59,615 nt of DNA from Methanothrix harundinacea (GTDB lineage: Archaea > Halobacteriota > Methanosarcinia > Methanotrichales > Methanotrichaceae): the NCBI GenBank assembly GCA_001509375.1, contig LGFT01000011.1, positions 1 to 59,615 on the forward strand. Direction: 5' to 3'. Below, in pieces: positions 46,186 through 50,697 of the stretch. The notes under the pieces are model-generated. The model was not told where the DNA came from. It saw only the letters and a program-made list of their open reading frames with translations, and did not search any database. A program made the position numbers and the translations under genes. Each line of letters starts with the position of its first letter. The stretch's first letter is position 1.

Positions 46186-46746
46186 TCAGGGGACGGGCTT
46201 AAAGGTCCGAGGGTCGAGGGTGAGGGGCGTCTCGCAGTAGGAGCAGATCGTCTCCAGGCCCGTCTCGGCCAAAACCGCCCTCTCCACCACCTCCAAGGGC
46301 GGGAGGTACTGGGTCATCTCCTCGCCACAGAGGGGGCACTTTATCTTCAGCCACTCAAGGCTCGTGAGGTCCCTTATAGTTAGTATCACCTCTCCCAGGG
46401 CGTCGGAGTAGGTCTCCCGGCTGAACGTAATCGGCTTGAGGTGCCTTATGAGGGCCGGCATCTCCACCCCCGTCTCCAGGAGGGGTATCACCAATTGGTC
46501 GATCCCGGAAGCGAAGCCGATCTCCTGGTTGACCCTCGGCGAGACAACCCCGTCCAAAGTAAGCAGCGCGATGACGCAGTCGGAGTGGCGGATGGCAAAC
46601 CTAACCCTCTCTCCCGGCGAGATCCCCCGGGCGCGCCGATAGATGGCGACGAAGCTCTCCAGGCCCACCCGCCAGAGGGCGTCGGCCAGCTCCCGGGCCA
46701 GGGGCTCGTCCTCCTCAGAGTGGGTGATGTAGACTTTTGTGATCAT
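46186..46746 (-). CDS. TIR-domain protein with C-terminal zinc ribbon
   Basis: A 186-residue protein. Residues 1-125 form a TIR-like fold: KVYITHSEEDEPLARELADA, then SDCVIALLTLDGVVSPRVNQ with Glu75 in NQEIGFAS, at the place of the catalytic glutamate of NAD-cleaving TIR enzymes. Residues 130-180 hold two CxxC pairs (KCPLCGEEMT and TICSYCETPL), a zinc ribbon. Bacterial and archaeal TIR proteins often act in phage defence by using up NAD or making a signal, but stand-alone TIR proteins with other roles exist. It sits at the start of the accessory region. Confidence 0.72.
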   Translation of the reverse strand: MITKVYITHSEEDEPLARELADALWRVGLESFVAIYRRARGISPGERVRFAIRHSDCVIALLTLDGVVSPRVNQEIGFASGIDQLVIPLLETGVEMPALIRHLKPITFSRETYSDALGEVILTIRDLTSLEWLKIKCPLCGEEMTQYLPPLEVVERAVLAETGLETICSYCETPLTLDPRTFKPVP

Positions 46747-47247: not shown

Positions 47248-47640
47248 ATGACCAAACAAGAGCATTGGATAAGCGCAAGAGGATGCGTCTATAACGTGTA
47301 TTACCACTTCGTATGGTCAACAAAGTATCGAAGGAAGGTTCTTATTGGTTCTATCAAGGGCATGGTCAAGAATCATTGTCTTACAAAGTATATAACGGAT
47401 GCTGCTTGGAACAAACTGATAACTGCCACGTCTTACAAGGCAGAATGGGCCGGTAAACGTGTTGAACTGGTGAATCCTTCAAATACATCCCAAATATGCT
47501 CTCGCTGCGGCCAGCTGGTTCAAAAAGATCTATCCGAGAGAGTACACAGATGTCCTTTTTATGGTCTGACTCTGGATAGAGATCATAATGCAGCCATAAA
47601 CATTCTCAGACTGGGGCTACAGTCTGTGGCGAAAGCTTAG
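47248..47640 (+). pseudogene. IS200/IS605 remnant: TnpA N-terminus fused to TnpB C-terminus
   Basis: The 130-residue frame starts like the single-strand transposase TnpA (VYNVYYHFVWSTKYRRKVL), then after about residue 34 switches to TnpB sequence (GMVKNHCLTKYITDAAWNKL, AEWAGKRVELVNPSNTSQIC). The end keeps the last RuvC aspartate (LDRDHNAAINIL). The zinc finger is damaged: the first CSRCG pair is intact, but the second reads CPFYG instead of CPxCG. TnpA has lost its HUH and Tyr residues and TnpB its first RuvC parts and guide-binding region, so neither can be active. An internal deletion that happened to keep the frame best explains it. Confidence 0.85.
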
Positions 47641-47670: not shown

Positions 47671-47970
47671 ATGGTGACAGAGAAGGTGAAACGAGAGCTT
47701 GAGATGCTTAAAAGGCACCTGATAGTCCTGAAATACGTCGTGGAAAACGAGCCGATCGGCATACTCAAGGTGGCAGAAGAGACGGGAATACCCAGCCACA
47801 AGGTCCGATACTCGTTGCGGGTGTTGGAGCAGGTGGGGCTCATCGCCGCCTCGGCGCCGGGAGCGGTCACCACAGAACGTACCGAGACATTTCTGAGAGA
47901 TCTGGACTTGGAAATAGACCAGCTTCAGGAAATGGTCAAAGGGCTGAAGGAAGTCAAGATCGAGCGGTAG
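47671..47970 (+). CDS. Small HTH protein, probable transcription regulator
   Basis: A 99-residue protein starting MVTEKVKRELEMLKRHLIVL; an ATG ten codons earlier directly abuts the transposase stop and is less likely. A winged-helix region is visible (VVENEPIGILKVAEETGIPS, then KVRYSLRVLEQVGLI), with a C-terminal coiled coil (DLEIDQLQEMVKGLKEV) for dimer formation. It precedes the ligase-like gene by 6 nt, so the two are one unit. Its target is unknown. Confidence 0.72.
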   Translation: MVTEKVKRELEMLKRHLIVLKYVVENEPIGILKVAEETGIPSHKVRYSLRVLEQVGLIAASAPGAVTTERTETFLRDLDLEIDQLQEMVKGLKEVKIER

Positions 47971-47976
47971 TATCCA

Positions 47977-49239
47977 ATGCCCCTCTACATAGAGATCGCA
48001 AGAACTCTGGAGGCAGTCTCCAGAGAGGAACGAAGAGACGATAAGGCCCAAATTGTGGCATCTCTCCTCAAAGGACTTCCCCCAGAAATGCTCCGACCTA
48101 CAGTCAGACTTCTATCGGGCAGGCTCTGGCCCCCCTGGGAATCGCGGGAGATGGGGATAGGACCCGAGATCCTTAGGGCAGCTTTGGAAGAGCTCTCAGG
48201 CCAAAGCATAACGCCCGAAACGAAACTGACCGACATGGGAGATCTGGCTGAAATGCTGGTTTTGAAGCGGCCTCAGCAGACCCTCACCACGTCGACTATG
48301 GATGCTCTGCAGGTTTATGACTCCCTTCGGCAGATCTCGGCTCAAAAGGGCAGAGGGTCTCTTTTCAGAAAGAAATCCTTCCTGAAGGGGCTTTTTCTGA
48401 ACGCTCGCCCCATCGAGGCCAAGTATATAGCAAGGACCGTCCTGGGAAGAACAATGGTGGGTTTGGGTCCATCCTCGATGTCAGCGGCCATCGGGTTGAC
48501 CTTCTCAGTGGACGAAGCCCTGGTGAAGAGGGCGTATGCCCTTCTGCCGGACTTTGGGATGGTGGCCCTCAACGCCCTCAGAGGAGAGATAATGGAAGTG
48601 GGATTAGCACCCCCAAATCCCGTCAGGCCCATGATCTTTGGGCGGGAGAAGAGAGCCGGTGATGCGATCGAGAGGGCAGGCACTGCGGCTTTCGTTGTCA
48701 GGTATGGTGGGCTGAGGGTGCAGGTGCATAAATTCAACGATCAGGTTTTCATCTATTCAAGCCAGCTTCGAGACCTCACCCCTTCTCTACAAGATCTGGC
48801 AGAGGAGGTGATGAGGATCAAGGGAAACTTCGTCCTGGAGGGAGAGTTTCTCCTGGTCCGTGAGGGCAGGATCCTGCCCCAATCGGAGATGGTCGGCAGG
48901 ATCAACCTCAAAGGCAGGCCAAGAGACGCGGCGATTCCGTCCCTCTCGGCATCAGATCTTCTCTACCTCGACGGGGAGGCGCTGGTCGATAAGAGCTACT
49001 CGGAAAGGAGACGACTATTGAGCAGGACCCTGAAGGATGTGGCAGGAAAGCCCCTATGCTCCAAAGTATTCCTGGCAGAGGAGCTGGTTTCGGACGAACA
49101 AAAGAAAGCTAAGGAGCTGCTCAAAAGGTCGTTGGATCGTGGTTTTAGAGGATTGCTACTGCGCGATCTTGGCGGACCTTATGCCCCTGGTTCTACGAGC
49201 CGGTGGGACGTGGTTATATCTCAGATGCCGGACTCTTAA
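47977..49239 (+). CDS. ATP-dependent DNA ligase paralogue lacking the catalytic lysine
   Basis: A 420-residue relative of archaeal ATP-dependent DNA ligases (about 550-600 residues). The N-terminal DNA-binding domain is present (GPEILRAALEELSGQS, LNARPIEAKYIARTVLGRTM). The nucleotidyltransferase core follows, but motif I, normally KYDG with the lysine that carries AMP, reads RYGG at residues 242-245. The motif III arginine is lost (FIYSSQLRDL) and motif IV reads RGLLLRDLGG. LEGE and SDLLYLDG are kept, and the OB-fold domain is missing. It cannot seal nicks by the known chemistry, yet the frame is intact and codon use is normal. It may act as a DNA-binding or regulatory protein. Confidence 0.82.
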   Translation: MPLYIEIARTLEAVSREERRDDKAQIVASLLKGLPPEMLRPTVRLLSGRLWPPWESREMGIGPEILRAALEELSGQSITPETKLTDMGDLAEMLVLKRPQQTLTTSTMDALQVYDSLRQISAQKGRGSLFRKKSFLKGLFLNARPIEAKYIARTVLGRTMVGLGPSSMSAAIGLTFSVDEALVKRAYALLPDFGMVALNALRGEIMEVGLAPPNPVRPMIFGREKRAGDAIERAGTAAFVVRYGGLRVQVHKFNDQVFIYSSQLRDLTPSLQDLAEEVMRIKGNFVLEGEFLLVREGRILPQSEMVGRINLKGRPRDAAIPSLSASDLLYLDGEALVDKSYSERRRLLSRTLKDVAGKPLCSKVFLAEELVSDEQKKAKELLKRSLDRGFRGLLLRDLGGPYAPGSTSRWDVVISQMPDS

Positions 49240-49530: not shown

Positions 49531-50697
49531 ATGACAAGAGGATTTTTGGCGGTTTCGGCGGCGTTTATGGTGGCCGCCATCATATTATCGCCAGCAATGG
49601 CATATACCATTTGCAGTTCAGCAAATCCATCATACACCATCGGTTCTGGAACGCCCTATCAGTACACGATTGATCCCAGCGCTCGTCAGGCCTATACCAT
49701 CGGCTCTGGAACGCCCTACCAGTACACTGCGGGATCCAACGGCCTCCTGGCCTATACCATCGGCTCTGGAACGCCCTATCAGTACACAATTGATCCCAGC
49801 GCTCTCCAGACCTACACCATCGGCTCAGGAAGTCCCTACGAGTACACCATGGGATCAACCGCGCTCCAACCTTACACCATCGGAATGGGAACCCCCGCAG
49901 CGAGTATAGGATCTTGCGAAGTTACGGCCCCTGCTACCATCAAGGAACCTGCGGCTGAGGAACCTGTGGCTGAGGAACCTGCGGCTGAGGAACCTGTGGC
50001 TGAGGAACCTGTGGCTGAGGAACCTGTGGCTGAGGAACCTGTGGCTGAGGAACCTGTGGCTGAGGAACCTGTGGCTGAGGATCTCATGAATATAGTCGAG
50101 ACGGCATCTGGAGCCGGCAATCTCAACACCCTGGTGATGGCAGTTGAAGCAGCAGATCTTGCGGAGATCCTGAGTGGCGATGGACCCTTCACCGTCTTCG
50201 CGCCCACGGATGACGCCTTTGCAATGGTGACAGATCTCGACATGAATGACACCGAAGCTCTGACCGAGATTCTGACCTATCATGTCGCCCTTGGCGAATA
50301 CATGGCCGCAGACCTGGCCACCATGTCCACAGTCGCAACCCTCGAGGGCTCAGACCTCGCCATCGAAGTCACCGATGAGGGCATAAAGATAGGTGGCGCC
50401 ATGGTGATCGAAGAAGATGTGGTCTGTAGCAACGGCGTAATCCAGGTCATCGATGCGGTTCTGGAGATCCCAGAAGAGACGACAGAAGCTGCGACGCCCG
50501 TTGAGACGACTGGCGACATCCTCGGCGATATCGTCATACCTGAGACGACCGAGACAAACGATACCCTCGGCGACATCGTCATACCTGAGACGACCGAGAC
50601 AAACGATACCCTCGGTGATATCGTCTTCCCACCTGAGACGACCGAGACAAACGACACCCTCGGTGATATCGTCTTCCCACCTGAGACTACCGAATAG
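49531..50697 (+). CDS. Secreted fasciclin-domain protein with three repeat regions
   Basis: A 388-residue surface or secreted protein. ATG 49531 follows GGAGGAAGG. The signal peptide is MTRGFLAVSAAFMVAAIILS followed by PAMA. Residues 35-125 are 20-residue repeats of the type YTIGSGTPYQYT. Residues about 137-186 are nine EEPVA-type units. Residues 187-315 are one FAS1 domain (GPFTVFAPTDDAFAMV, EILTYHVALGEYMA, IEEDVVCSNGVIQVIDAVLE). The C-terminus has four units of the type TTETNDTLGDIV. There is no C-terminal anchor. FAS1 proteins act in adhesion; in filamentous methanogens this could serve cell-cell or sheath contacts, which is inference. Confidence 0.85.
   Translation: MTRGFLAVSAAFMVAAIILSPAMAYTICSSANPSYTIGSGTPYQYTIDPSARQAYTIGSGTPYQYTAGSNGLLAYTIGSGTPYQYTIDPSALQTYTIGSGSPYEYTMGSTALQPYTIGMGTPAASIGSCEVTAPATIKEPAAEEPVAEEPAAEEPVAEEPVAEEPVAEEPVAEEPVAEEPVAEDLMNIVETASGAGNLNTLVMAVEAADLAEILSGDGPFTVFAPTDDAFAMVTDLDMNDTEALTEILTYHVALGEYMAADLATMSTVATLEGSDLAIEVTDEGIKIGGAMVIEEDVVCSNGVIQVIDAVLEIPEETTEAATPVETTGDILGDIVIPETTETNDTLGDIVIPETTETNDTLGDIVFPPETTETNDTLGDIVFPPETTE
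49633..49905 (+). repeat. 60-bp tandem repeats in the fasciclin gene (N-terminal)
   Basis: Four full units and one partial unit of 60 bp encode 20 residues each, with the constant part YTIGSGTPYQYT and a variable spacer (IDPSARQA, AGSNGLLA, IDPSALQT). The nucleotide sequence ACCATCGG(C/T)TCTGGAACGCC is conserved between units. This is an in-frame coding repeat, not a CRISPR. Confidence 0.88.
49940..50080 (+). repeat. 15-bp tandem repeats encoding EEPVA units
   Basis: Nine units of GCTGAGGAACCTGTG or its one-base variant (GCG for GTG) encode an alternating Glu/Pro/Val/Ala spacer. Several adjacent units are identical, a sign of recent slippage. It separates the N-terminal repeats from the FAS1 domain. 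Confidence 0.9.
50518..50693 (+). repeat. 48-51-bp tandem repeats at the end of the fasciclin gene
   Basis: Four units encode LGDIV(I/F)PETTETNDT, the last two with an added proline (FPPETTE). The copies differ by only a few bases. The stop codon follows immediately after the last ETTE. Confidence 0.88.

Follow-up and report, generated by a model that had tools for sequence, protein, structure and literature searches.

Archaeal Lig1-type DNA ligases, represented by the enzymes of Pyrococcus, Thermococcus, and Archaeoglobus (3gde), are the closest described relatives of the protein examined here, with which they share the fold of the DNA-binding domain (DBD) and adenylation domain, 27 to 32% identity, and a common ancestry established at the level of sequence. 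However, in our protein the catalytic nucleophile is not conserved, the motif I aspartate, the motif IIIa phenylalanine, the motif IV glutamate, and the motif V tryptophan and two lysines are absent from all 40 orthologues aligned, the OB domain is absent or degenerate, and new residues have become fixed. We refer to it as a pseudo-ligase. Inactivated archaeal PolB paralogues, which form a conserved replication-enzyme clade with a suspected structural role (PMC2527604, 2008), offer a parallel, since there too a paralogue of a replication enzyme lost its activity and persisted. The enzyme is a different one, and the PolB family is widespread in archaea, whereas the pseudo-ligase is, as far as searched, confined to one family and has a linked helix-turn-helix (HTH) gene and a promoter element of its own. 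DNA repair is promoted by Lig4 even when it is catalytically dead (PMC9638927), and a DNA-binding structural role has been described for Lig4 (PMC10858965). Inactive DNA ligase IV thus shows that a ligase fold may aid repair after catalysis is lost, but it is an engineered mutant of an active enzyme, carries OB and BRCT domains, and belongs to eukaryotic NHEJ.

In the open-access literature searched, no description was found of this protein or of any natural, lineage-fixed DNA ligase without ligase chemistry. Homology annotation could easily count such a protein as a second ligase; according to an older survey, Methanosaeta has just one ATP-dependent ligase (PMC1684257). The findings below suggest that in a major methanogen family the ligase clamp fold can come under selection for a purpose besides sealing, and the pseudo-ligase offers a natural experiment on a ligase limited to binding.

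A pseudo-ligase gene and its modelled fold

The window, by which we mean the whole stretch of 59,615 nucleotides that was analysed, belongs to a genome of 2.38 Mb in 118 contigs. As an earlier note on this DNA had reported, it holds an intact open reading frame of 420 codons (positions 47977–49239; all coordinates in this section are on the + strand). Pfam DNA_ligase_A_N matches residues 4 to 172 of the product (1.9e-29) and DNA_ligase_A_M matches residues 224 to 409 (4.6e-22), and no match to DNA_ligase_A_C/OB was found in the window protein. The DBD comprises residues 1 to 200 (47977–48576; net charge +5), and a degenerate adenylation domain comprises residues 205 to 408 (48589–49200; net charge +6). 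At the motif I equivalent, R242-Y-G-G-L-R247 (48700–48717), the lysine and the aspartate of canonical KxDGxR are replaced by arginine and glycine, respectively, and the second glycine and final arginine are still present, which bears out the earlier description of RYGG in place of KYDG in a protein with no OB domain. At R265 (48769–48771), the glutamate of canonical ligases has given way to a basic residue, which is arginine in 34 and lysine in 4 of the 40 pseudo-ligases. N310 (48904–48906), invariant in all 40 and arginine in canonical ligases, starts a basic loop that reads INRR..SRRS in other genera. Within SDLLYLDG, in the motif IIIa region (48952–48975), the canonical adenine-stacking phenylalanine is serine here, and the aspartate is kept in 40 of 40.

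An AlphaFold2 model built from the 40-row alignment reached a pLDDT of 91.3 and a pTM of 0.88. Foldseek returned archaeal ligases as the nearest structures (TMq 0.84–0.93), with the best superposition on the closed A. fulgidus ligase 3gde (TMq 0.93, rmsd 2.1). As modelled, the fold is still that of a ligase.

Loss of catalytic residues across the family

Motif residues were counted in a joint alignment of the 40 pseudo-ligases with 39 canonical ligases, of which 1 row (L126, from genome G013) is the wrong open reading frame and lowers canonical conservation by that row only. The motif I nucleophile position holds lysine in 12, arginine in 19, and alanine in 6 of the 40 pseudo-ligases. Because the lysine persists in some orthologues, such as that of the sister genome G014 with its KYGG, the family is not defined by loss of the lysine alone, and the earlier statement that the AMP-accepting lysine is lost holds for the window protein but not for the family as a whole. 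The residues lost throughout (0/40 at each position) are the motif I aspartate, the motif IIIa phenylalanine, the motif IV glutamate, and the tryptophan and both lysines of motif V; the motif IV lysine survives in a single protein and is arginine in 37. An element with the sequence SRR follows motif I and is usually called Ia. Its arginine is kept in 2/40, and it is to this element, not to motif III, that the missing arginine of the earlier note belongs (serine at position 262, canonical R276). Motif III itself has glutamate in 23/40 and aspartate in 10/40. Its LEGE is intact in the window protein, as had been noted, whereas other genera have drifted to DAD, and the conservation once ascribed to SDLLYLDG is qualified by its phenylalanine-to-serine change. 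Positions that are kept in the pseudo-ligases include G245, R247 (the last arginine of motif I; 39/40), Q249, H251, D327, R344, Y402, and G405.

About a dozen loci still carry an OB domain, in degenerate form; the remainder lack it, with relics in two, and the Pfam OB model PF04679 stays below threshold in the two pseudo-ligases tested with it. Because it is degenerate in some loci and absent or a relic in others, this pattern points to repeated loss of the domain.

The pseudo-ligase thus retains the marks of a homologous fold, namely the DBD and adenylation domain, and lacks those of a functional ligase, namely the residues of motifs I, IIIa, IV, and V and the OB domain with motif VI. The loss of every catalytic motif indicates that both adenylation and sealing chemistry are probably gone, and normal ligation appears to be excluded on wider grounds than the earlier note had given, which did not include the motif IV glutamate, the motif IV lysine-to-arginine exchange, or the three motif V residues. 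We consider it very unlikely that the protein is instead an unusual but active nucleotidyltransferase or ligase working through another lysine or with help from a partner in trans; the 12 proteins with a motif I lysine and the conservation of R247, Q249, H251, D327, and R344 speak for such an enzyme, but the positions empty in all 40, the motif IV exchange in 37, and the lost or degenerate OB fold speak against it.

Distribution, origin, and active paralogues

A pseudo-ligase orthologue was found in every one of the 50 genomes searched from the order except G033, which is 56% complete, and in 33/33 high-quality Methanotrichaceae genomes spanning 11/11 genera (as to genus names, Methanocrinis is a proposed genus; PMC10598746). 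When a profile of the 40 orthologues was run against 238 genomes of the class, no pseudo-ligase was detected outside Methanotrichaceae: the family's own proteins scored 427 to 608 bits, versus at most 278 bits for everything else in the class, mostly canonical ligases of 550 to 700 amino acids, and at most 297 bits outside the family in a phylum-wide sample. From the orthologue search and this gap in scores, the pseudo-ligase therefore appears nearly universal in Methanotrichaceae and, as far as searched, confined to it.

In the tree, the pseudo-ligases form one clade (support 100/100) on a long branch, which groups with the canonical ligases of Methanotrichaceae at low support (69/84). The simplest reading, although not proven, is that the pseudo-ligase arose by a ligase duplication at the base of the family or close to it. 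The window genome also encodes a separate, full-length active ligase (C40; 566 amino acids, KFDG, all motifs), which is 30% identical to the pseudo-ligase, and a small ligase (C29; 332 amino acids, KIDG). Orthologues therefore exist beyond this strain and a second ligase is present, the two points on which the earlier note had made its reading depend; the orthologues recur across Methanotrichaceae, outside genus g9 with the same HTH partner directly upstream, and the motif I aspartate and the motif IIIa phenylalanine, motif IV glutamate, and motif V residues are lost in all 40 aligned. The pseudo-ligases accordingly show the features of a pseudoenzyme, being monophyletic, devoid of catalytic residues, under purifying selection (see below), and accompanied by an active paralogue in the same genome.

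Selection, fixed residues, and charge

Values of dN/dS were calculated by the Nei-Gojobori method, leaving out rows with the misassigned G013 canonical ligase. Compared with its two nearest relatives, the window pseudo-ligase gave 0.195 and 0.205, and one close pair of pseudo-ligases gave 0.206 (dS 0.095). The DBD (0.14–0.19) is held more tightly than the adenylation domain (0.22–0.26), and comparisons of the window with its genus yielded 0.12 to 0.20 for the canonical ligase and 0.10 to 0.18 for the HTH protein. Selection on the fold, which the earlier note had suspected from conserved motifs, is supported by these values of about 0.2.

About 17 positions, among them Y4, R44, R131, G138, P191, N310, and R396, have a residue shared by at least 90% of the pseudo-ligases and by under 20% of the canonical ligases. 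The mean net charge of the DBD is +0.5 in pseudo-ligases versus −6.8 in canonical ligases, and that of the adenylation domain is +4.5 versus −1.0. Taken together, the selection, newly fixed residues, and shifted charge are what a new function, and not decay, would leave behind. The absent OB domain and catalytic motifs could be taken as signs of a decaying pseudogene or an assembly artefact, but given intact reading frames in dozens of independent genomes, dN/dS of about 0.2, and a gene found across 11 genera with its operon layout kept in 10 of them, we regard this as extremely improbable. The orthologue distribution and dN/dS led us to reject a pseudogene, and the recurrence of the same architecture in dozens of genomes led us to reject an assembly or frame error.

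We lean, by a modest degree, toward a duplicated ligase that has turned into a non-catalytic DNA-binding protein and is made together with its HTH protein. On this view, the replicative ATP-dependent DNA ligase of archaea would have been duplicated, and one copy would have lost its chemistry and been retained for a non-catalytic role; from its conservation we infer that such a biological function exists. The retained DBD and the more basic shell of the adenylation domain would bind duplex DNA at nicks, gaps, or other interruptions but not turn it over, and the protein might then mark, shield, or bridge the interrupted DNA or pass such sites to repair or replication proteins. DNA binding, like the substrate, partner, autoregulation, and pathway assigned to the pseudo-ligase, is something we infer, and the DNA binding or repair regulation proposed in the earlier note is plausible. 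Because some positions conserved in the canonical DBD, for example R174, R183, and E198, are altered in pseudo-ligases, the DNA contacts may have been remodelled or swapped for a protein interface.

Position 100 is glutamine in 40/40 pseudo-ligases; other ligases of the class often have a PIP-like Q..F..F there, and the active Methanotrichaceae ligases mostly have proline (L120–L139 versus L140–L156, region aligned to pseudo-ligase residue 100). This speaks for a protein–protein regulator whose partner would be PCNA, the active ligase, or some other part of the replisome, and not DNA: the paralogues may have come to share clamp contact in a new way, and the inactivated PolB proteins set a precedent (PMC2527604). 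Such a regulator seems unlikely, though worth keeping in view, since the aromatic end of the PIP motif is not conserved in pseudo-ligases, which have QxxL/I only, and their charge has shifted toward DNA binding.

The HTH partner and the operon

The gene directly upstream (47671–47970, + strand) encodes a 99-residue winged HTH protein with a fold like that of the N-terminal domain of CggR/SorC. Its start at 47671 (MVTEKVK) is conserved and backed by relatives, and its stop at 47970 lies 6 bp ahead of the pseudo-ligase ATG at 47977, in agreement with the six bases noted earlier. Because the two genes almost touch, they are probably expressed from one transcript. The AlphaFold2 model of the HTH protein (pLDDT 92.4) has a long N-terminal helix, a winged HTH, and a long C-terminal helix, and its best fold match is the CggR–operator complex 8r3g (E 5.4e-5), with 7oyk also matched. 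Likeness in sequence is weak: CggR_N of Pfam scores 3.3e-5, below its cut-off, and the SorC-family regulator 2o0m gives 1.2e-6. Unlike CggR and SorC proteins, the partner stands alone at 99 residues without a C-terminal sugar-phosphate-binding domain, and it belongs to an archaeal family found throughout the class.

The HTH gene lies directly upstream of the pseudo-ligase in 35/35 loci outside genus g9 (the window included), with a gap of −4 to +7 nt in 34 of them, and the HTH protein is 66 to 92% identical in loci outside the window (35 loci). In g9, the HTH gene remains with FtsZ and the pseudo-ligase gene is located elsewhere; because the unit is split there, the two proteins are not strictly co-dependent. 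Moreover, 205/238 genomes of the class have a member of the HTH family, in most cases with no pseudo-ligase, and the family thus is wider, and probably older, than this partnership. The two-gene unit described by the earlier note therefore stands for the loci outside g9, but not in g9, and the HTH protein is rejected as an exclusive partner. Across the class, the 99-residue protein is a putative core regulator. It is mostly single-copy, 45 to 55% identical, and present in most families, with shifting neighbours (e.g. L099:5928–6233, − strand); in Methanosarcinaceae it lies between a FAH-hydrolase gene and that of glutamyl-tRNA synthetase (GluRS). Since the pseudo-ligase has lost its chemistry yet is kept by selection in a unit with a DNA-binding regulator, the Methanotrichaceae protein probably has a DNA-related job other than ligation.

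A palindromic promoter block and its loss in the window

The block TGNTARCAYGNN-CCATGTCAATCGATGG-AATTATAA is found 46 to 74 nt before the HTH start in 27/35 loci (at most three mismatches over a 16-bp core), and three further loci have a degenerate version there; shuffled upstream regions average about 6.6 mismatches. The block, also denoted the CCATGTCAATCGATGGAATTATAA block, is a palindrome adjoining a TATA box. It is common to genera whose pseudo-ligases share only about 40% identity, and its CCATGTCAATCGATGG-AATTATAA part is near-invariant beside the TATA box (e.g. L033, L047) and essentially single-copy per genome. A genome-wide search for CCATGTCAATCGATGG+AATTATAA with at most one mismatch gave 24 matches in the 50 genomes of the order, 23 of them at the pseudo-ligase operon, and the reversed-pattern control gave zero in the same genomes. 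Elsewhere in the class, 7 scattered one-mismatch matches were found versus 4 for the reversed-pattern control. No convincing regulon emerged, the one extra match in the order lying in a single genome.

In our favoured account, the HTH and pseudo-ligase genes would be co-transcribed, usually from this dedicated promoter with its palindrome beside the TATA box, and the HTH protein, which we expect to bind the block, would set the level of the unit through its own promoter. The window is an exception. The block is missing there, as it is in g9, in G039, and in three genomes in which FtsZ and HTH are 8 nt apart. The site of the relatives' native block is occupied in the window by a deletion remnant of an IS200/605 TnpA-TnpB element (47248–47640, + strand), which abuts the HTH gene and contains a 130-residue open reading frame (47248–47637) fusing an N-terminal piece of TnpA (Y1) to a C-terminal piece of TnpB; from about 10 bp ahead of the HTH start, the sequence is again homologous to that of relatives. 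Relaxed selection in the window lineage after loss of the promoter was rejected, N/S being 0.60 versus 0.39 and 0.64, with no clear rise.

The order FtsZ-HTH-pseudo-ligase occurs in 34 loci, with FtsZ 8 to about 1,600 nt upstream. This arrangement, the 8-nt gap in three genomes, and a dedicated palindromic element present at essentially one site per genome favour a DNA-state sensor that couples breaks or nicks to expression and possibly to cell division, in which the pseudo-ligase reads interrupted DNA and alters how the HTH protein binds at the promoter of the unit and at the adjacent ftsZ. We find this doubtful, as FtsZ usually lies 110 to 1000 nt from the HTH gene, the operon is served by a promoter of its own, the HTH protein is class-wide without a pseudo-ligase, and the window genome carries FtsZ on a different contig. 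An archaeal DNA-integrity switch, in which a family-wide pseudo-ligase both senses or protects interrupted DNA and signals with the HTH protein to its own promoter and ftsZ, must be put forward as quite speculative.

Neighbouring genes

A radical-SAM gene lies immediately 3′ of the pseudo-ligase gene in most genera except g1, g9, and g11, often with an ATGA overlap. The best family models for the gene (L047:10762–11613 and 21 other loci) are of the PA0069/Rv2578c type, matched below cut-off, and not spore photoproduct lyase. It is not conserved in the genus of the window, where only weak matches were found in 2/9 genomes, and it was therefore rejected as an obligate partner. A phage or defence origin of the pseudo-ligase was also rejected; there was no match in the phage collection, PADLOC reported nothing for the ligase-like protein, and the HTH protein showed only weak similarity to the Csa3 winged HTH.

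Two further genes lie near the unit in the window. A stand-alone TIR-domain protein of 186 residues (46186–46746, − strand; TIR_2 3.6e-12) has CxxC pairs toward the C-terminal end and possibly serves in defence or signalling. On the other side, a fasciclin-domain protein (49531–50697, + strand) is probably secreted and contains repeats, which are of about 60 bp in the N-terminal part (YTIGSGTPYQYT) and read TETNDTLGDIV in the C-terminal part.
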